The position numbers were made by a program, and so were the translations under genes. This document shows, piece by piece, positions 1 to 5,875 of a DNA stretch of 5,875 nt (positions are counted from its first letter, which is position 1; each line of letters starts with the position of its first letter). Source of the stretch: CBDUXZ01 sp965371325 [NCBI: uncultured bacterium] (GTDB taxonomy: Bacteria > JAUYMQ01); the NCBI GenBank assembly GCA_965371325.1, contig CBDUXZ010000144.1, positions 1 through 5,875 on the forward strand. Reading direction: 5' to 3'. The notes below the pieces were generated by a model that worked only from the letters and a program-made list of their open reading frames with translations, was not told the DNA's origin and ran no database searches.

Positions 1-74
1 GCGCGGAGAGAGATGGTCGCGTTGGTAAGGCAGGCACGCGGATCGCTTGCGAAATCATAGACCGTACCAGGACG
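1..74. other. Unassigned window edge, possible gene tail
   Basis: These bases precede the first transposon-like element. On the plus strand an open frame runs from base 1 to a TAG at 58-60 and reads as a short basic tail (ARREMVALVRQARGSLAKS). On the minus strand another frame is also open throughout. Neither is long enough to name. The minus frame does not continue the broken ATP-grasp gene on the other side of the element, so this flank is not simply the missing part of that gene. The plus-strand tail faintly resembles the C-terminal helix of the intact ATP-grasp protein (ETVEAVLREAHRRLEVL), which could be chance. Confidence 0.2.
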
Positions 75-273
75 TACGGGTGGCGAATCGTAATTTCAAA
101 CATGAAAACAAGCGCTTGAGGAGTCTTGCTCCAGACAGCGTTCTGCCCTACGCTTTTCCACCATGAAGCATCTATCCACCCTGAGCTGATCTCCACTGAT
201 TCCGGTGGCAGGCACATTGCCGGGGGCTCTACGAGCTCCCGATGGCGGCGTGATTAGCAATTCGCCATGCACA
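75..273 (+). mobile_element. Short transposase-less element, copy 1 (MITE-like)
   Basis: An AT-richer block of about 199 bp bounded by inverted ends: TGGCGAATCGTAAT near 81-94 and ATTAGCAATTCGCCATGCACA at 253-273. The left 101 bp (75-175) align without gaps to 1694-1794. The last 33 bp (241-273) match 1885-1917 with one mismatch, and 209-273 match 1360-1424 at 55 of 65 positions. It carries no open frame of its own and no transposase. The outer TG...CA dinucleotides at the right end, and the doubled end seen in another copy, recall IS21-family termini; that family assignment is inference. Its left end reads TACGGG where copy 3 reads TGTGGG, so the outermost bases may be decayed. It sits at the break of the ATP-grasp pseudogene. 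Confidence 0.6.
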
Positions 274-482
274 GGATGATCGTCGGCGAAGCGGGCGATC
301 TCGTCGGACGCAGCGTGCGGATCGGCGAAATCAAAGGTAAGATTCTTTTCCGGCACCGCCTCCGCGAACGCTTGCTTGCGATCGGTACCGACCACGGTCT
401 CGATTCCGAGCTTTCGGCCCGCGTCGAGAAAATCATGAGTGCGGTAGGTCGTGGTCGGCAGGAGCAGAAGGACGCGTTTCAT
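96..482 (-). pseudogene. Truncated ATP-grasp ligase, N-terminal fragment
   Basis: The first ~71 codons (ATG at 480-482, down to about 274) encode the N-terminal pre-ATP-grasp domain of a protein closely related to the intact ATP-grasp gene at 3481-4719. Both start MKRVLL-LPTTTYR-HDFLDA and about 40 of 71 residues are identical by hand count. Similarity stops abruptly after the DDHPV residues, where the end of the short mobile element begins. The frame then reads about 57 codons of element sequence to a TGA at 96-98. The ATP-binding and catalytic regions are missing, so no ligase activity is expected. It is divergent from the DUF169 gene and keeps a promoter matching that of the intact paralogue. 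Translation would give only a chimeric 128-residue product with no known function. Confidence 0.8.
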
Positions 483-499
483 TCTCTGCTCACGCCGAG

Positions 500-527
500 A
501 GGATAGGGCCTTTGCTTAAGGAGTCAA
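500..527 (-). promoter_or_regulatory. Sigma70-type promoter of the ATP-grasp pseudogene
   Basis: Read on the minus strand, TTGACT (522-527) is followed after exactly 16 bp by TATCCT (500-505), with the ATG 23 bases after the start of the -10. The same two hexamers with the same 16-bp spacer, plus shared bases around them (TTGACTCCTT-AG and TATCCTCT), stand before the intact ATP-grasp gene. That conservation makes this call stronger than the hexamers alone. The -35 box overlaps the ribosome binding site of the divergent DUF169 gene. Confidence 0.6.
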
Positions 528-531
528 ACGC

Positions 532-1245
532 ATGCGCCACAAGGTAATAGCGACACTGTTGGGAGAGAGGTTCCGACTCGAGAGTCCCCCGGTCGCCCTC
601 GCCTATGTGATGAAACCCCCGAAAGGTGTTTCCCCCTGGTCGGGTCCGTCCGTTCCCTCGGCCTGCACGTTCTGGCGCCGCGCGGAGCACGAAGTCTTTT
701 TCGCGACAGCGGAGCAGCACATGAACTGCCCCATCGGGGCGCTGACCAGCGGGTTTCAGTTGACGCCGGCTGCGGACGCAAGGCTTGCGTTGGTGCTCGA
801 GCAGATGACCGGATGCCACTACCTGAAGCCCGCCGAGCCGTCGAGCCTGCCGGGCGTCGAAAAACAGAAAACAGGCGTCCTCTATGGACCGCTTTCGGCG
901 TTTCCGATCGATCCCGATCTCATTCTCATCTGGGCCGACGCGCGGCAGGCGATGCTGATTGAAGAGATATCGGGAAACGCCCGGTGGGATGCGCAGCGCG
1001 GGATCAACGCCTTCGGCCGGCCGACCTGCGCCGCCCTTCCGTTGGCGCTCAAGGAGGGACGCACCGTGGTCTCCTTCGGGTGCGCCGGCATGCGAACGTT
1101 TACGGAGGTGGACGACGCGAAGATGCTGGCAGTCCTGCCGGGGCGAAACACCGCGACGCTCCAGGCCGCGGTGGAGCGGGCCTTTCTCGCCAACGCCACC
1201 GTGCAGGCGCTCTACGATGAAATGAAGGCTAGCCACCCGGGGTGA
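532..1245 (+). CDS. DUF169 family protein
   Basis: A 237-aa protein that I recognise as the DUF169 family (COG2043 type), whose biochemical role is not established. Visible family hallmarks are an N-terminal SPPVALAYV segment (18-26), ACTFWRRA around Cys45, HMNCPIGAL around Cys66, an acidic/hydrophobic PDLILIWADARQAM block (128-141), RPTCAALP around Cys166, and SFGCAGMRTF around Cys184. The spaced cysteines suggest a metal, cluster or thiol role, but this is inference. It has no signal peptide or membrane segment, so it should be cytosolic. The ATG start is supported by AAGGAG at 518-523, eight bases upstream. It is divergent from the broken ATP-grasp gene; the two share a ~49-bp control region, and its ribosome binding site overlaps the opposing promoter. 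Length is usual for the family. Confidence 0.85.
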   Translation: MRHKVIATLLGERFRLESPPVALAYVMKPPKGVSPWSGPSVPSACTFWRRAEHEVFFATAEQHMNCPIGALTSGFQLTPAADARLALVLEQMTGCHYLKPAEPSSLPGVEKQKTGVLYGPLSAFPIDPDLILIWADARQAMLIEEISGNARWDAQRGINAFGRPTCAALPLALKEGRTVVSFGCAGMRTFTEVDDAKMLAVLPGRNTATLQAAVERAFLANATVQALYDEMKASHPG

Positions 1246-1316
1246 TCGTGCCGTGAATGTCCTGTCCACCTCAAAAACTCCGTCGGCTCACTTTAGGATA
1301 CGATCTGGGCTGCTCG

Positions 1317-1346
1317 TTCGGCCTGATCATCATCGAGTCGGCCGAA
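1317..1346. repeat. Inverted repeat in the gap after DUF169
   Basis: TTCGGCC (1317-1323) and GGCCGAA (1340-1346) form a perfect 7-bp stem around a 16-base loop, about 70 bp after the DUF169 stop. No T-run follows, so it is not a classical intrinsic terminator. It could still mark the 3' end of the DUF169 transcript or be part of the neighbouring mobile-element remnant. The rest of the gap 1246-1359 shows no gene. Confidence 0.3.
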
Positions 1347-1359
1347 TGAGGTGCGCAGT

Positions 1360-1450
1360 CAGGCACATTATCGCGGGCTATTCCAGCTCCCGATGGGAGC
1401 GTGATTAACAATTCGCCATACACACGTGATTAGCGATTCGCCATGCACAG
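1360..1450 (+). mobile_element. Isolated right end of the short element family
   Basis: Bases 1360-1424 match the right end of copy 1 (209-273) at 55 of 65 positions with no gap, ending in ATTCGCCATACACA. No matching left end lies immediately upstream, so this is a solo end or a decayed copy. Its last 25 bp (1401-1425, starting GTGATTAACAATTCGCCATA) are followed directly by a second 25-bp unit (1426-1450, GTGATTAGCGATTCGCCATG) that is identical at 21 of 25 positions. Tandem terminal motifs are a known feature of IS21-type ends, but an end-to-end nested remnant would look the same. Confidence 0.55.
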
Positions 1451-1473
1451 GTCACATCCGAAACGTTAAATTC

Positions 1474-1482
1474 TGCTATTTT
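1474..1482 (+). promoter_or_regulatory. Possible extended -10 promoter for the zinc-ribbon gene
   Basis: TGCTATTTT carries a TGN motif directly before TATTTT (four of six matches to TATAAT), 41 bases upstream of the TTG start of the small zinc-ribbon gene. No convincing -35 hexamer lies 16-18 bp upstream, where element-end sequence sits. It is offered only as an extended -10 candidate in an AT-rich patch. Confidence 0.25.
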
Positions 1483-1523
1483 GAGGTCCGGGAAAGCGCG
1501 CTGAAAAGGAAGGGAGAAACGGT

Positions 1524-1685
1524 TTGGAGACGGGAACCCGGCGCTGTCCGAAGTGCAAGAAGGAGGTTTCAATCGCGGACGACGTCAGCGAGGTTGAGCG
1601 GCTCGTCGGCGAAGTCTTCATCATTCTGCATCTCAAATGCCCTGCCTGCGGCCATACCTTCGATACCGCGATCGATTCCGATTAA
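1524..1685 (+). CDS. Small zinc-ribbon protein (53 aa), TTG start
   Basis: A 53-residue protein in a frame that starts at TTG (1524-1526) and ends at TAA (1683-1685). It has two CPxC knuckles: CPKC at residues 8-11 and CPACGH at 39-44, separated by an acidic and then hydrophobic segment (VERLVGEVFIILHL). This is the layout of a two-knuckle zinc ribbon, so it likely binds one zinc ion and may contact nucleic acid or protein; the exact role is unknown. The frame has no ATG or GTG after the upstream TGA at 1482-1484. TTG is favoured because AAGGAAGGGAG (1506-1516) lies seven bases before it. It is an orphan gene between two element remnants. The acidic tail DTAIDSD ends nine bases before copy 3 begins, and the C-terminus looks natural rather than cut. 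Confidence 0.65.
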   Translation: METGTRRCPKCKKEVSIADDVSEVERLVGEVFIILHLKCPACGHTFDTAIDSD

Positions 1686-1713
1686 TGACTACCTGTGGGT
1701 GGCGAATTATAAT
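1685..1713 (+). promoter_or_regulatory. Candidate promoter at the left edge of element copy 3
   Basis: ATGACT (1685-1690; four of six matches to TTGACA), a 17-bp spacer, and a perfect TATAAT (1708-1713). The -10 box lies inside the left inverted end of the element and the -35 box lies just outside it, overlapping the zinc-ribbon stop region. It would transcribe into the element and on toward the 3' end of the radical SAM gene in antisense. Copy 1 has CGTAAT at the equivalent place, so the perfect box is not shared. Confidence 0.3.
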
Positions 1714-1917
1714 TTCGGGCATAAAAACAGGCGTTATTGGAGTCTTGCTTCAAAGGGAGTTCTCCCCTACGCTTTTCCGCCATGAGGGACCTATTCATAG
1801 TGCTCGGACATCCGCTGTCCATACTCGCGACCCTGCCGAGAACTGGACGTTCGAGGGACGGCGTCGAGATCGATACGAGCCGAGGATGGCGGCGTGATTA
1901 GCAATTCGCCATGGACA
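1694..1917 (+). mobile_element. Short transposase-less element, copy 3 (MITE-like)
   Basis: A block of about 224 bp that starts TGTGGGTGGCGAATTATAAT and ends ATTAGCAATTCGCCATGGACA, forming imperfect inverted ends around TGGCGAAT. The first 101 bp align without gaps to 75-175 of copy 1, sharing blocks such as GGAGTCTTGCT and CCCTACGCTTTTCC. The last 33 bp match 241-273 with one mismatch. The interior (about 1795-1884) is not obviously shared with copy 1 and encodes nothing recognisable. No target duplication is visible (ACC before, CGC after). An internally deleted insertion sequence is the likely origin; IS21 type is a guess from the TG...CA ends. It occupies the gap between the zinc-ribbon and radical SAM genes. 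Confidence 0.6.
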
Positions 1918-1979
1918 CGCACGGCGGAGGACATGGGCACCCGCCTCCAAAGCTGCCGAAACGCCCGATCGAAGCGACA

Positions 1980-3371
1980 TTACACCGATGCGAGTTGATT
2001 GTCGGTGGGTTCCGCGCAGCAGTACCAGGGCTCGCTAAGGCGCGGCGTGAAACGGCCGTGGGAGGCGGGAGGGAGGGGAGGCGCCGCGAGCCCCGCGTAC
2101 GTGTGCGCCAGATCTCGGATACGCGCAAAGATCTCCCCGCGCGCACGCCCCTCTTGCCCTTGTGCGAGCGCCTGAACCTCGAACTGGAGCGCATCCACGC
2201 GCGGATCGGGATTGCTCCAGGGATAGCTCAGCGCCTCTTCGTCGAGAGGCGCAAGGCACGCGCGTACGTCGTCAAGATCGAGAAGCTTGGAACCGGGCGG
2301 GATGAGCAGGCGGATGGAGAGCTGCACGGGCGCGACAGCGTCAACGAGATCAAGCTCCGCCAGGTTCGAAAGCAGATCACAATACCCGGCGAGCGTGGTC
2401 CAAGGCGTGAACGGGACGAACGTCGGGGAGAGCGCGAGATCAAGCGCCGTCAAGAGCCGCACGACACGATAGACGTCCGCCCGCGTATGCCGCTTGTCGA
2501 GCCTCACGAGGACGTTCTCATCGAACGATTCGACCGCCGTTGTGACGAAGAGGCACCCTGTGTCCTTGAGGAGGCGGAGCGACTCTCCGGCCGCCAGAAG
2601 GTGCTCCACTTTGATCGTGACGTCATAAGTAAGATCGGTAAACTCCTTGTGTATCCCACGCACGATCGCGAAGGCGTGCGCCGGGCCGTTCAGAAAGTCG
2701 GGATCGCCGAAGGAGATGTGGCGGGCGCCCGCCGCGACCTGCTGCCGGATGTCGGCAAGAACGATCTCACGCGGCACGATGCGGAAGCGCCCTTCGTAGA
2801 CGGGAACGATGGGGCAGTGGCGGCAGCGGTGCTTGCAGCCCCGGCTCGCCTCCACGTAACCCGCCACGCGCTCCTCGCCGTCGGGGAGGAGAAGCCGGGC
2901 GTAGCGATCGAGCGGCGGAAGGTCCGAGCGATCGGGAACCATGAAGCGCTGCCTCGCGGTAGAGATGCGCGGCTCGGGCTGGCTTCCCTCCGGCCATTCC
3001 TCACCGCGCGAGAGCCGCTCTGCAAGCGCCGACAGCCCCGCTTCGAACTCTCCGCCGAGAACCGTGCGAACTCCGAGCCGCCTCAGGTAGCCCTCGTTCA
3101 TGGGGGCGTAGAGGCCGTAGGCGGCAAGATGCGCCCTCGGGTTCAGCGCCCGCGCGCGCGGGATGAGCCGCGCCGCAAGGCGGGTGGCCGTGTGCATGGG
3201 CAGGTAGAACGCAATCAGATCGGCCCAGCGGAAAGACTTCTCTTCAAAGTCTTCGATGGCGAGATCCAGCGAGCGCACCTCATTGTTTCGGGCGCGAAGC
3301 CACGCCGCCGGCTCGGCAAGGCCGAAAGGCGGGTGCCCAAGCTCGTAGATCGAGACGAGGAGGACCTTCAC
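1980..3371 (-). CDS. B12-binding-type radical SAM protein with CCAEP tail
   Basis: A 463-aa enzyme. Residues 1 to ~120 form a Rossmann-like cobalamin-binding-type domain (MKVLLVSIYELGHPPFG at the start). I do not see the classical DxHxxG histidine motif, so B12 binding is uncertain. The radical SAM core begins near residue 170 with GCKHRCRHC; Cys179, Cys183 and Cys186 give the CxxxCxxC [4Fe-4S] site. SFGDPDFLN (220-228) is the usual SAM-contact strand. After a long C-terminal region the protein ends in WYCCAEPTDNQLASV, with CCAEP at 451-455 encoded TGC TGC. This matches what I recall as the 'CUAEP/CCAEP-tail radical SAM' family; here it is the all-cysteine form. The start is GTG (3369-3371), chosen because MKVLLVS is the natural first strand; no clear ribosome binding site precedes it. 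It is divergent from the ATP-grasp gene, 109 bp apart. Reaction and substrate are unknown. Confidence 0.85.
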   Translation of the reverse strand: MKVLLVSIYELGHPPFGLAEPAAWLRARNNEVRSLDLAIEDFEEKSFRWADLIAFYLPMHTATRLAARLIPRARALNPRAHLAAYGLYAPMNEGYLRRLGVRTVLGGEFEAGLSALAERLSRGEEWPEGSQPEPRISTARQRFMVPDRSDLPPLDRYARLLLPDGEERVAGYVEASRGCKHRCRHCPIVPVYEGRFRIVPREIVLADIRQQVAAGARHISFGDPDFLNGPAHAFAIVRGIHKEFTDLTYDVTIKVEHLLAAGESLRLLKDTGCLFVTTAVESFDENVLVRLDKRHTRADVYRVVRLLTALDLALSPTFVPFTPWTTLAGYCDLLSNLAELDLVDAVAPVQLSIRLLIPPGSKLLDLDDVRACLAPLDEEALSYPWSNPDPRVDALQFEVQALAQGQEGRARGEIFARIRDLAHTYAGLAAPPLPPASHGRFTPRLSEPWYCCAEPTDNQLASV

Positions 3372-3434
3372 GGGCGCGCACTTTTACAGCGAACGCGGGC
3401 AAGGGGCATGGGAATTCTGTTTCCAGCCATCCGA

Positions 3435-3462
3435 TTGACTCCTTGAGGCCAGCGCTTATCCT
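3435..3462 (+). promoter_or_regulatory. Sigma70-type promoter of the ATP-grasp gene
   Basis: TTGACT (3435-3440; five of six), a 16-bp spacer, and TATCCT (3457-3462; four of six), placing the transcript start near 3469 and leaving only a ~12-base leader before ATG. The same hexamers and spacer occur before the truncated paralogue at 500-527 on the other strand, with the ATG at nearly the same distance (24 versus 23 bases from the -10 start). This conservation across diverged copies supports function. Confidence 0.65.
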
Positions 3463-3473
3463 CTGCGCAGAGG
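3460..3473. promoter_or_regulatory. 14-bp perfect palindrome over the transcript start
   Basis: CCTCTGCGCAGAGG is a perfect 14-bp palindrome. It starts inside the -10 box, covers the expected +1, and ends in the ribosome binding site (AGGGGG, 3471-3476). It is placed like a repressor operator, or as a very short leader hairpin that could hide the ribosome site. In the truncated paralogue only CTCT and AGAG at the same distance remain, so the symmetry is not fully conserved. Confidence 0.35.
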
Positions 3474-3480
3474 GGGAAGA

Positions 3481-4719
3481 ATGAAGCGGGTCCTTCTGTT
3501 CCTGCCGACAACGACGTACCGTGCCCACGACTTTCTCGATGCTGCGGAGAGACTCGGCGTCGAGGTCGTCGTCGGCTCCGATCAGCGGCAATCGCTCGAG
3601 GCCGAAGCGCCGGGAAAGGCGTTGACCCTCAACTTCGGCGATCCTAGCGCGGCCACGGCGGATATCGCAACGTTCAGCCGTCGGTACCCACTTGACGCGA
3701 TCGTGGGGGCCGACGATGAAACGACGCTGCTCGCGGCGATGGCGGCGGGCGCGTTGGGCCTTCGTGCGAACCCTGTCGAGGCGGTCAGGCTGACGCGCAA
3801 CAAGCACCGGATGAGGGAAACCCTCGCACGGGCCGGGCTTTCCTCCCCCCGAACGAAACTTTTCACGGTTTCCGACGATCCGAAAGTGGCGGCCGGCGAG
3901 GTTTCCTTCCCCTGTGTCCTCAAGCCCACCTTCCTCTCGGCGAGCCGCGGGGTCATTCGCGCCGACGACCCTGACGCTTTCGTCGCGGCCTTCAATCGCA
4001 TCGCCCATATTCTAGCGGACCCGGATGTGCGCAGGCGCTGCGACGAGTCACCCAGCGAAATCCTCGTGGAAGAGTACATCCCCGGGGCGGAATTCGCCGT
4101 CGAGGGGATCCTTGCCTCAGGCGTGTTCTCCCTGCTCGCCCTGTTCGACAAGCCTGACCCGCTGGAAGGGCCATACTTCGAAGAAACCATCTATCTGACG
4201 CCCTCCCGCGTGCCGGCCGATCGGCAGGGGGCCATCGCCGAAACGGTCCGTGCGGGGGTGCGTGCCATCGGGCTTCGCGAGGGGCCGGTGCACGCCGAAG
4301 TCCGGCAGAACGACGAAGGGGTTTTTCTTCTTGAGATTGCCGCGCGGTCGATCGGGGGTAGGTGCGCACGCGTGCTCCGGTTCGGCGCGGGGGTCTCGCT
4401 CGAAGAGTTGATCCTGCGACACGGGATTGGCGAGGAGGGCGCGATACCCGCGCGCGAGCGTACGGCGGCAGGCGTGATGATGATTCCGATCCAACGGGCC
4501 GGCGTGCTCAAGGAGGTGGCCAACCTGGAGGAGGCGCGAGCGGTGGAGGGGATCGAGGATATCGACATCGCGATTGCGACGGGGCAGCCGCTGGTTCCGC
4601 TTCCCGAAGGGCATCGCTACCTCGGTTTTATCTTCGCACGGGGCAAGAGTCCGGAAACAGTTGAGGCGGTGCTGCGTGAAGCCCATCGCCGCCTCGAAGT
4701 TCTGGTCGATTCTTACTAG
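3481..4719 (+). CDS. ATP-grasp family carboxylate-amine/thiol ligase
   Basis: A 412-aa ATP-grasp enzyme, expected to activate a carboxylate as an acyl phosphate and join it to an amine or thiol; substrates are unknown. Domains in order: pre-ATP-grasp Rossmann-like region (1 to ~100, including GADDETT 76-82), helical linker with NKHRMR (107-112), ATP-grasp fold with FPCVLKP (Lys148), the flexible SASRGV loop (153-158) and the hinge LVEEYIPG (195-202), the metal-binding region HAEVR (Glu273) and LEIAARSIGG (Glu285), and a C-terminal subdomain from ~330. The Asn often found two residues after the last metal-binding Glu (ExN) is Ala here, as I recall from some relatives next to radical SAM genes. 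ATG is preceded by AGGGGGAAGA. It is divergent from the radical SAM gene, has a full promoter, and has a broken paralogue at 96-482. It is cytosolic and full-length. Confidence 0.85.
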   Translation: MKRVLLFLPTTTYRAHDFLDAAERLGVEVVVGSDQRQSLEAEAPGKALTLNFGDPSAATADIATFSRRYPLDAIVGADDETTLLAAMAAGALGLRANPVEAVRLTRNKHRMRETLARAGLSSPRTKLFTVSDDPKVAAGEVSFPCVLKPTFLSASRGVIRADDPDAFVAAFNRIAHILADPDVRRRCDESPSEILVEEYIPGAEFAVEGILASGVFSLLALFDKPDPLEGPYFEETIYLTPSRVPADRQGAIAETVRAGVRAIGLREGPVHAEVRQNDEGVFLLEIAARSIGGRCARVLRFGAGVSLEELILRHGIGEEGAIPARERTAAGVMMIPIQRAGVLKEVANLEEARAVEGIEDIDIAIATGQPLVPLPEGHRYLGFIFARGKSPETVEAVLREAHRRLEVLVDSY

Positions 4720-4764
4720 GCGTCGGCGGGAACCGGCGAGAGAGCGAGGATCATTCAGAGGATT

Positions 4765-4787
4765 CTCCGCCCGCGCCGCGCGCGGAG
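4765..4787. terminator. GC-rich hairpin between convergent genes
   Basis: CTCCGC (4765-4770) and GCGGAG (4782-4787) pair around a GC-rich interior in the 103-bp gap between the ATP-grasp stop and the NfuA stop. It is well placed to end both converging transcripts, but no T-run follows on either strand, so it is a weak terminator candidate. Nothing else is visible in 4720-4822. Confidence 0.3.
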
Positions 4788-4822
4788 TGCCAGACCGGGC
4801 TGCAGGCGCCCGGCGTGAGCCG

Positions 4823-5413
4823 TCACTTTCCGGGTTGGTAATAGGGGTTCGTTCCGGATGCGTGATCGGTTTCGTCCAGGACGCCGACGATCTCCGAGAT
4901 CTCGTTCTTGAGCGTTTCCTCGATCCCCTGCTTGAGGGTGACGTCCGCCATGCCGCAACCTTGGCAACCGCCCCCCATCCGGATGTAGGCCGTCCCCTCC
5001 TTCACCCCGAGGAGCGTGATGTGGCCCCCGTGGCTGGCGATGCCGGGATTGATTTTATCTTCCAGGACCTTCTGAACACGCAAGACGAGCGGATCCGACG
5101 CGCCCTCGGGCTCGTTCGGATTATCGAACTTGAAGCCGCTTCCCGACACGCTGGTCACGAAGTCGAGCGTCGCTCCCTTGATGCGCGGAACGCTCTCTTT
5201 GTCGAGGTAGACGACAACGCCGCCGGAATCCACGCGCTCGTCGTCGTCGGTTTTCTCATCCTGTGGCGCCAGGCGCAGATCGTATTTCCAGGCGGCCACG
5301 CCATCCTCCACCACGCTCACCCGCACGGCGGAGTCGGTTCGCTTCTGCGCTTCCTGGATGCCGATGATTTTCTCCCGCGCCGCGTCCGTCAATGTGAGAA
5401 TTTCATCTGCCAT
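4823..5413 (-). CDS. nfuA: NfuA-type iron-sulfur cluster carrier
   Basis: A 196-aa two-domain protein. Residues ~5-100 resemble an A-type (IscA-like) scaffold that has lost all cysteines, as in known NfuA proteins. Residues ~108-178 form the NifU C-terminal domain with INPGIASHGGHITL (121-134) and the cluster-binding GGGCQGCGMADVTLK, whose CxxC is Cys150 and Cys153. The tail DHASGTNPYY is typical of the family. It should carry a [4Fe-4S] cluster as a dimer and pass it to client apoproteins in the cytosol; the radical SAM enzyme nearby is one possible client, but that link is only inference. ATG at 5411-5413 is chosen over a GTG ten codons upstream because GGGAG (5421-5425) lies seven bases before it and the extra residues are not family-like. 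It is convergent with the ATP-grasp gene. Confidence 0.88.
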   Translation of the reverse strand: MADEILTLTDAAREKIIGIQEAQKRTDSAVRVSVVEDGVAAWKYDLRLAPQDEKTDDDERVDSGGVVVYLDKESVPRIKGATLDFVTSVSGSGFKFDNPNEPEGASDPLVLRVQKVLEDKINPGIASHGGHITLLGVKEGTAYIRMGGGCQGCGMADVTLKQGIEETLKNEISEIVGVLDETDHASGTNPYYQPGK

Positions 5414-5445
5414 GGCGTCTCTCCCAAGGGCGTGTGCTGCCACCT

Positions 5446-5451
5446 ATTCTA
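5446..5451 (-). promoter_or_regulatory. Possible -10 box of the NfuA gene
   Basis: On the minus strand TAGAAT matches five of six bases of TATAAT, 32 bases upstream of the NfuA ATG. No good -35 hexamer appears at the right distance; that place is occupied by the GGGGTC/GACCCC palindrome. Confidence 0.3.
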
Positions 5452-5462
5452 ACCTAACTTTT

Positions 5463-5475
5463 GGGGTCAGACCCC
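5463..5475. repeat. GGGGTC-A-GACCCC palindrome
   Basis: A perfect 6-bp inverted repeat around a single A, flanked by TTTT on the left and TTTATTT on the right. On the plus strand it looks like a short intrinsic terminator, but no plus-strand gene ends here. I recall this exact palindrome as a dispersed short repeat in many environmental proteobacterial genomes; this is from memory and not checked. It lies six bases beyond the stop of the membrane-protein gene and upstream of the NfuA gene. Confidence 0.45.
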
Positions 5476-5480
5476 TTTAT

Positions 5481-5789
5481 TTAAGCGCGGTCGGCGAGGA
5501 TATATCGGATCACGTCCGCGAAGTCCACGATGAGCGAAAGCGTGTCGGTCACGATGAGAACCACGATCCATTTGCCGAACCCGCTGGCGCGGTTGAAGCC
5601 GGAAAGTTTCATGGCAAGCCAGATCAGCATCGGCGTCCAGAAGATGATATGGGAAATGCCAAGCAGCTTGTTGTAGCAGTTGATCTCGCACAAGGTTGCC
5701 ATGAAAATACCGTTCGCCACAAAAATCCAGAAGATGATCCGCGCTTCGCGCACCTTCCAGAACGCGCGTGTCCCTATCGTAAATTCCAT
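5481..5789 (-). CDS. Small three-helix membrane protein, unknown function
   Basis: A 102-aa protein with three likely transmembrane helices at about residues 17-36 (ARIIFWIFVANGIFMATLC), 42-60 (LLGISHIIFWTPMLIWLAM) and 72-91 (GKWIVVLIVTDTLSLIVDF). It has a basic N-terminal stretch and the pattern CEINCYNKLLGISH between helices 1 and 2. I do not recognise a named family, though the pattern looks like a conserved hypothetical inner-membrane protein. The ATG at 5787-5789 is preferred over a GTG at 5799-5801 four codons upstream; GGGTGG upstream of the ATG is only a fair ribosome site. The stop TAA is at 5481-5483. It could share a transcript with the NfuA gene 67 bp downstream, though a palindrome and a candidate -10 box lie between them. 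Nothing can be assigned in 5802-5875. Confidence 0.6.
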   Translation of the reverse strand: MEFTIGTRAFWKVREARIIFWIFVANGIFMATLCEINCYNKLLGISHIIFWTPMLIWLAMKLSGFNRASGFGKWIVVLIVTDTLSLIVDFADVIRYILADRA

Positions 5790-5875
5790 CCGTTGTGCCA
5801 CCCGAAAATTCCGGCCGCCTGGTCCGGGCTTGAGTTTACCTCAGACGGTGCGCATACTTCCCGCCTTTTGAAGCT

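Follow-up and report, generated by a model that had tools for sequence, protein, structure and literature searches.

Contig CBDUXZ010000144.1 of the uncultured bacterium CBDUXZ01 sp965371325 (assembly GCA_965371325.1), of which positions 1 to 5,875 were analysed (hereafter the window), carries a gene for a radical S-adenosylmethionine (SAM) protein with a CCAEP tail and, divergent from it, a gene for an ATP-grasp ligase. As a preliminary description of this DNA had read the two genes as a possible uncharacterised modification module, we were interested whether they belong together and what they might make. The CxxxCxxC motif and the 109-bp control region on which that description drew are both present, and the ligase assignment agrees with Pfam (ATP-grasp_4, 112.4 bits). 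The two genes are a real pair, which probably makes a small molecule linked to iron or to further soft metals. The features of the pair are as follows:

1980..3371, minus strand: CCAEP-tail radical SAM protein, 463 aa, GTG start (NCBIfam NF040546)
2814..2837, minus strand: CxxxCxxC [4Fe-4S]/SAM motif CKHRCRHC, radical SAM residues 179-186 (translation)
2016..2021, minus strand: codons of the C-terminal Cys pair C451-C452 in the CCAEP tail (sequence)
3372..3480, no strand: divergent intergenic region of 109 bp between the radical SAM and ligase genes
3435-3462, plus strand: sigma-70-like box TTGACT-16-TATCCT in the intergenic region (sequence)
3481..4719, plus strand: ATP-grasp ligase with L-amino-acid-ligase fold, 412 aa (Pfam, profile, AlphaFold2 (AF2)/Foldseek)
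4363..4365, plus strand: ligase Cys295 codon (RSIGGRC), UGA in four related genomes

The radical SAM protein and its ligase partner

Comparison with the NCBIfam model NF040546, named "CUAEP/CCAEP-tail radical SAM (seleno)protein", gave 618.9 bits (cut-off 500) over profile positions 1-467 of 468; the radical SAM protein of the window thus belongs to this named, uncharacterised family over its full length and is no chance match. The second-best NCBIfam model was that of ArsL, the radical SAM enzyme of arsinothricin biosynthesis (NF040542; 261.6 bits, cut-off 450). A radical SAM fold agrees with Pfam PF04055 (48.4 bits, cut-off 29.5), and the N-terminal domain matched the Pfam B12-binding family PF02310 weakly (25.4 bits, below the 32.1 cut-off). 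The AF2 model had a mean predicted local distance difference test (pLDDT) score of 94.8, and by Foldseek this predicted structure resembled B12-type radical SAM enzymes, with AprD4 (6fd2) as best match. C179, C183 and C186 were invariant among 74 aligned radical SAM sequences, as were, of all other cysteines, only the tail pair and C273. By tree path, the closest relative was a protein from a deltaproteobacterial metagenome-assembled genome (MAG), 67% identical. For the ligase, the Pfam domains ATPgrasp_N, ATP-grasp_4 and LAL_C2 were found, and its profile matched the L-amino-acid ligase BL00235 (PDB 3vot) with E 2.4e-70. Its AF2 model (pLDDT 93.6) aligned in Foldseek with 3vot at a template modelling (TM) score of 0.84 and with 3vmm at TM 0.78. 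As all NCBIfam matches of the ligases tried fell short of their cut-offs, no specific model covers these proteins.

Homologous loci were taken as the best 80 of 199 relatives from a scan of genome contigs. In 46 of the 80 loci the two genes were no more than 1.4 kb apart (at most 200 bp in 40 of them), and in two more the ligase gene lay at a distance of 3-5 kb. A ligase homologue was present elsewhere in 26 of the 32 remaining genomes (E ≤ 1e-20) and in 6 there was none; this search ran over 36 genomes or records, among them three counted before and the plasmid of Thermomicrobium roseum, which has no ligase homologue. Of the 46 close pairs, 45 have the ligase gene downstream on the same strand. 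The divergent order of the window is thus unusual and was shared only by a locus of a Deltaproteobacteria MAG (L003). To avoid a choice of loci, genomes were sampled from three phyla, named here after the titles of the centre loci. Among 119 genomes of Acidobacteriota, 20 had the radical SAM gene (18 over the cut-off, 2 partial), and the ligase was present in 19 of these 20 versus 3 of the 60 negatives tested out of 99, one of the three being weak. The corresponding numbers for Chloroflexota were 22/22 positives versus 7/79 negatives (all 101 tested, E ≤ 1e-40). In the phylum of Catenulispora, 23 of 396 genomes had the radical SAM gene (E ≤ 1e-60), with a ligase in 22 of the 23 versus 3 of 57 negatives tested (of 373), again one of them weak. 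Pooled, the ligase occurred in 63 of 65 genomes with and in 13 of 196 tested genomes without the radical SAM gene (Fisher 1e-44), a p-value that is only a guide as each of the three centre genomes is a known positive, relatives are non-independent and many MAGs are incomplete. With regard to the preliminary description, the co-occurrence that it had asked for in support of a module was found. The radical SAM family itself had already been named, under a name that gives no function; the term modification module is too broad, the fold of the ligase being indicative of a small amino-acid product.

Cysteine and probable selenocysteine in both enzymes

The radical SAM protein terminates in ...EPWYCCAEPTDNQLASV, with the tail WYCCAEP. 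Loci with a radical SAM match above 150 bits were compared at this place, with ArsL loci, duplicates and one outlier excluded, and the tail pair was found in 115 of 118, as Cys-selenocysteine (Sec, U) in 69, CC in 39, UC in 4 and UU in 3; in the other three (L044, L140, L142) the frame or contig stops earlier. A lack of tail conservation among close homologues, which the preliminary description had named as grounds against its reading, was not observed. With Sec counted as Cys, E447, W449, C451, C452 and E454 were invariant in the 74 aligned sequences. The Sec that the preliminary description had mentioned for related proteins is found in the CUAEP of the family name and in the T. roseum homologue (L001 7935-9410), which is annotated as stopping at UGA, while its frame runs on as WFC-UGA-AEP and reads CUAEPLEDPSG past the annotated stop. 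Matches to tRNA-Sec of at least 59 bits were obtained in 31 of 33 UGA-tail versus 7 of 16 CC-tail genomes (50 genomes searched, L044 unassigned); we set the line at 59 bits because genomes like that of B. subtilis also give weaker matches. In a quick tree from which the tail had been left out, parsimony gave 13 changes between the Cys and Sec states, at least 7 of them forced on well-supported branches. The tail is predicted to be fairly ordered, with AF2 pLDDT of 74, 88, 84 and 77 at residues 431-440, 441-450, 451-460 and 461-463 respectively.

A similar exchange was observed in the ligase. Column 295 holds Cys in 88 loci, while the codon is TGA in 5 loci from 4 genomes (L051 and L111 being the same genome) and 2 loci end before it. 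Three ligases of ArsL clusters have Ile at this place, and an outlier of 27% identity has Thr; the later loci L135-L157 fall outside this count. The UGA ligases come from 4 of the 5 genomes available for their phylum (Tectomicrobia-type), the fifth having Cys, and all five genomes gave a tRNA-Sec match of at least 73.9 bits. A CUAEP-tail radical SAM gene lies directly upstream of the UGA ligase in 4/4 genomes. Among the four UGA ligase genes the codons of identical residues are kept in only 45 of 224 cases (Met, Trp and stops excluded), and codons +5 to +11 past the UGA are all identical, which is the longest such run (next 3). This block contains GGGAC-CGGGAU-GUCCC, a hairpin resembling a Sec insertion sequence (SECIS), whose stem formed in the minimum-energy folds of L112, L113 and L114, while L111 favours another fold. 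Sec insertion at the ligase UGA is strongly indicated by these sequence features, and with the UGA at the ligase Cys and the conserved SECIS-like hairpin both enzymes appear to be selenoproteins in those four genomes. The samples of Acidobacteriota and Chloroflexota showed no UGA at column 295. Sec had also been considered for the ligases of L107 (G132) and L108 (G075) and was rejected, their single TGA flags being stop codons at the gene ends. In BacD, substrate choice is controlled by Trp332. Cys295 lies two columns beyond this Trp332 column in the alignment; PDB 3wo1 is, by its title, the Trp332Ala mutant. A second, Cys-type ligase copy was noticed in three of the Sec-ligase genomes (L111-L116: G044, G177, G178), and in G044 an NfuA-like gene adjoins it.

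Neighbouring genes and other features of the window

The remaining features of the window are:

4823..5443, minus strand: NfuA-like Fe-S carrier with Fe-S_biosyn and NifU domains (Pfam)
532..1245, plus strand: DUF169 protein, an occasional partner (Pfam, 71.8 bits)
270..482, minus strand: second ligase copy, truncated to residues 1-71 (BLASTP against the full ligase)

Neighbours within 1.5 kb were counted in 126 genomes that have a locus with the radical SAM gene or the ligase gene, excluding the window. YggX was found in 41, Nfu in 46, both in one and DUF169 in 9 of the 126. Thus YggX or Nfu is near in 86 genomes versus about 0.8 expected by a rough estimate. The search sequences were taken from the same loci and the family identities rest on Pfam, where PF04362 independently puts YggX beside the ligase in five genomes (G086, G112, G135, G165, G174). 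The NfuA-like gene of the window matched Pfam NifU (81.3 bits) and Fe-S_biosyn (50.3 bits), and against the NCBIfam NfuA model it gave 143.1 bits, below the 269-bit cut-off. In genomes where only the ligase was seen, Nfu adjoins it in 7 of 10 (nine of the ten, all but G180, having been searched genome-wide for a radical SAM gene). The whole set of the window, namely NfuA-like, ligase, DUF169 and radical SAM genes, recurs in the Deltaproteobacteria MAG L003. Four Cys columns are invariant in nine aligned DUF169 sequences (window 532-1245; L003, L015, L031, L058, L105, L128, L131, L133), and these proteins may bind a metal or cluster. YggX was rejected as a strong genome-wide link, as its presence was only weakly linked (12/20 versus 17/60, p = 0.016). 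A third universal partner was likewise rejected, since in a Pfam tally made after removal of the YggX, Nfu and DUF169 clusters no family occurred in more than 4 of 129 neighbour proteins. The preliminary description had seen no precursor peptide, and among neighbour genes of 70 aa or more in the homologous loci there was also no recurring precursor-like gene.

The truncated ligase copy, with Pfam ATPgrasp_N at 25.4 bits just below the 27-bit cut-off, is divergent to the DUF169 gene and ends in a repeat element; upstream of it the alignment shows the same sigma-70-like box as for the full ligase. Diverged copies of intergenic repeats (65 nt three times, 121 nt twice, 27 nt four times) occupy window positions 78-275, 1360-1451 and 1697-1919, and one of them terminates the truncated copy; possibly they are remnants of a small mobile element. 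A small open reading frame (ORF) with TTG start at 1524-1685 (plus strand) encodes CPKC and CPAC motifs and looks zinc-ribbon-like, with no homologue at E 1e-3 in the homologous loci searched. An ORF of 106 aa at 5481-5801 (minus strand) is without Pfam or NCBIfam match.

A proposed pathway and its alternatives

As the pair occurs in many bacterial phyla and often beside Fe-S helper genes, a small-molecule product tied to iron or soft metals is probable. A small amino-acid-derived product is favoured by the fold of the ligase, by the kinship to ArsL and by the lack of any recurring precursor-like neighbour gene of 70 aa or more. The adjacency of Nfu or YggX points to iron or Fe-S chemistry, and the fixed Cys or Sec position of each enzyme suggests a soft atom that is handled by the two in common. 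From the observed pairing, the conserved Cys/Sec of both enzymes and the Nfu/YggX neighbourhood, we infer reaction, substrate, product and role as a two-step pathway to an amino-acid-derived metabolite for the handling of iron, Fe-S clusters or another thiol-loving element, a proposal that as a whole is tentative and stays somewhat short of an even chance. The model for step 1 is the transfer of 3-amino-3-carboxypropyl to As(III) by ArsL, itself a prediction in PMC8552651. In an ArsL-like manner, the radical SAM enzyme would cleave SAM and add an amino-acid fragment, 3-amino-3-carboxypropyl, to a soft atom that its Cys/Sec pair at the C-terminus presents. In step 2 the ATP-grasp ligase would couple that amino acid to a second one, with Cys/Sec295 recognizing the same soft atom, and the product would be a small molecule aiding iron or Fe-S handling. 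A precedent for small thiols acting with Nfu is S. aureus without bacillithiol, which is rescued by extra sufA or nfu according to a review (PMC8593673); among the references of this review is a study of yggX, gshA and the labile iron pool. A further reading, which we regard as doubtful, is that the pair makes a widespread, undescribed small-molecule cofactor for iron or Fe-S handling, comparable in function to glutathione or bacillithiol, with both enzymes using Cys/Sec to hold a soft atom and both being selenoproteins in some bacteria.

Some observations weigh against the proposed pathway. YggX, Nfu and DUF169 are all missing nearby in 38 of the 126 genomes, and in two actinomycetes metalloid-type neighbours are found instead. 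The 261.6 bits to ArsL lie below its cut-off of 450, and the ArsL tail reads RCCLKC and not CCAEP. The ligases of ArsL clusters are only 22-26% identical to that of the window, and the three aligned have Ile at column 295, so that the ArsL pairing may be convergent. A replacement of bacillithiol by the product was considered and rejected: BshC, for bacillithiol synthesis, occurs in 12 of 20 radical-SAM-positive versus 39 of 60 negative Acidobacteriota genomes (p = 0.79), and as it is not depleted such a replacement is disfavoured.

The same BshC numbers speak against a sulfur-insertion route to a new low-molecular-weight thiol, in which the radical SAM enzyme would insert sulfur taken from an Fe-S cluster or a persulfide at the tail Cys/Sec, Nfu or YggX would rebuild the consumed cluster and the ligase would complete a glutathione-like thiol. 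In lipoyl synthase, it is NfuA that puts the auxiliary cluster back in place. This route accounts for the Nfu/YggX adjacency and for a thiol-reactive Cys/Sec in both enzymes, and it would also suit the S. aureus thiols of the review. We nevertheless regard it as unlikely, since with only C273 and the tail pair invariant beyond the radical-SAM cysteines there is no obvious second-cluster motif, and Nfu adjoins the ligase also where no radical SAM gene is seen. If the Cys/Sec tail were instead a hydrogen-atom donor, cycling as disulfide or selenenylsulfide while the radical SAM enzyme epimerizes or desaturates an amino acid or a ligase-made dipeptide, the tolerance of Sec at both tail positions (UC, UU) would be explained, and C-terminal vicinal Cys/Sec pairs are redox-competent. 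As the Cys/Sec295 of the ligase, the ArsL kinship and the Nfu/YggX link are left unexplained, we consider this very unlikely. RimK-type ATP-grasp enzymes can modify proteins, and YggX or Nfu, as usual and nearly mutually exclusive neighbours, might themselves be the small protein modified by the pair. This appears highly improbable, as the ligase is closest to free-amino-acid ligases, one pair would require two unrelated substrates, and 40 of the 126 genomes are without YggX and Nfu nearby.

The ArsL kinship could also reflect an organo-metalloid natural product, that is, an amino acid of arsenic or a similar element and its dipeptide, related to arsinothricin. An ATP-grasp gene is annotated in 5 of the 6 ArsL-type plasmid loci examined (of 16 matches), which suggests an arsinothricin-derived peptide or conjugate; at the arsL locus of P. 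amygdali none is annotated. Catenulispora rubra has the order radical SAM, DUF169, ArsR-type regulator (84.6 bits against a cut-off of 55; CVCDL stretch present) and ligase fused to a GNAT domain, and in Actinopolyspora an ArsP_1 permease (130.4 bits) is encoded two genes downstream. Further signs come from L087, where an ArsN-like acetyltransferase gene (31% identity) ends 8 bp from the ligase, from L123, with an ArsR-like match at 348 bp from the ligase, and from L139, where about 2.4 kb separate an ArsN-like ORF from the start of the radical SAM gene. Nevertheless, such a product is distinctly unlikely. In a search of loci other than L135-L157, the Catenulispora ArsR and Actinopolyspora ArsP queries matched their own loci only, and ArsM matches were 27-32% identical and mostly kilobases off. 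The matches in L087 and L123 belong to common families, and YggX and Nfu are by far the commoner neighbours. With so few matches, arsenic genes were rejected as a general context, and none of the six window ORFs scanned matched arsM, arsQ, arsN or an exporter of the arsinothricin cluster. Side observations in these loci are a GTP-binding protein, encoded in addition to the ATP-grasp enzyme, in the plasmid ArsL clusters L002, L083, L084, L085 and L086, with an aquaporin in four of them, and, for the Catenulispora ligase with its C-terminal GNAT domain (L031 6712-8526), an operon-like run with the ArsR-type regulator and a pyridoxal phosphate (PLP) decarboxylase.

In the literature searched, which left most subscription papers out of reach, no paper was found on CUAEP/CCAEP or on ATP-grasp, selenoprotein and SECIS together. 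NF040546 and ATP-grasp are absent from the main text of a selenoproteome review as far as accessible (PMC13188914), and ATP-grasp is not mentioned in PMC9312934. As no published account was found within this search, the Sec-form ATP-grasp ligase, the radical SAM/ligase pairing and its YggX/Nfu neighbourhood appear to be new here. A radical SAM family named for its tail alone thereby gains a nearly obligate partner, an Fe-S/iron-carrier context and a testable chemistry. If the proposed pathway is true, an undescribed metabolite would be made in several bacterial phyla, by organisms of which many are known from metagenomes alone. An ATP-grasp enzyme with Sec would add a ligase to the selenoproteins and would mark a substrate that requires a selenolate or thiolate at the active site.

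Compared with known systems, the window protein passes the curated cut-off of NF040546 and carries its C[CU]AEP tail, while the description of that family is without the ligase partner or the Nfu/YggX context. BL00235 (3vot) and BacD (3vmm, 3wnz) have the fold and the ATPgrasp_N/ATP-grasp_4/LAL_C2 domains in common with the window ligase. BL00235, to which it is about 25% identical, has no Cys at the aligned place, and the alignment with BacD ends just short of the place of Cys295. The Sec-assisted organometallic (SAO) operons also have adjoining selenoprotein genes and a proposed organometallic role (PMC13188914), but their enzymes differ, and no SAO family was among the matches of the window ORFs. 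A permease near the Actinopolyspora homologue matched SaoE only weakly (57.6 bits, cut-off 325). ArsL (NF040542) is homologous to the window radical SAM protein over residues 3-399, and both proteins have vicinal cysteines at the very C-terminus.

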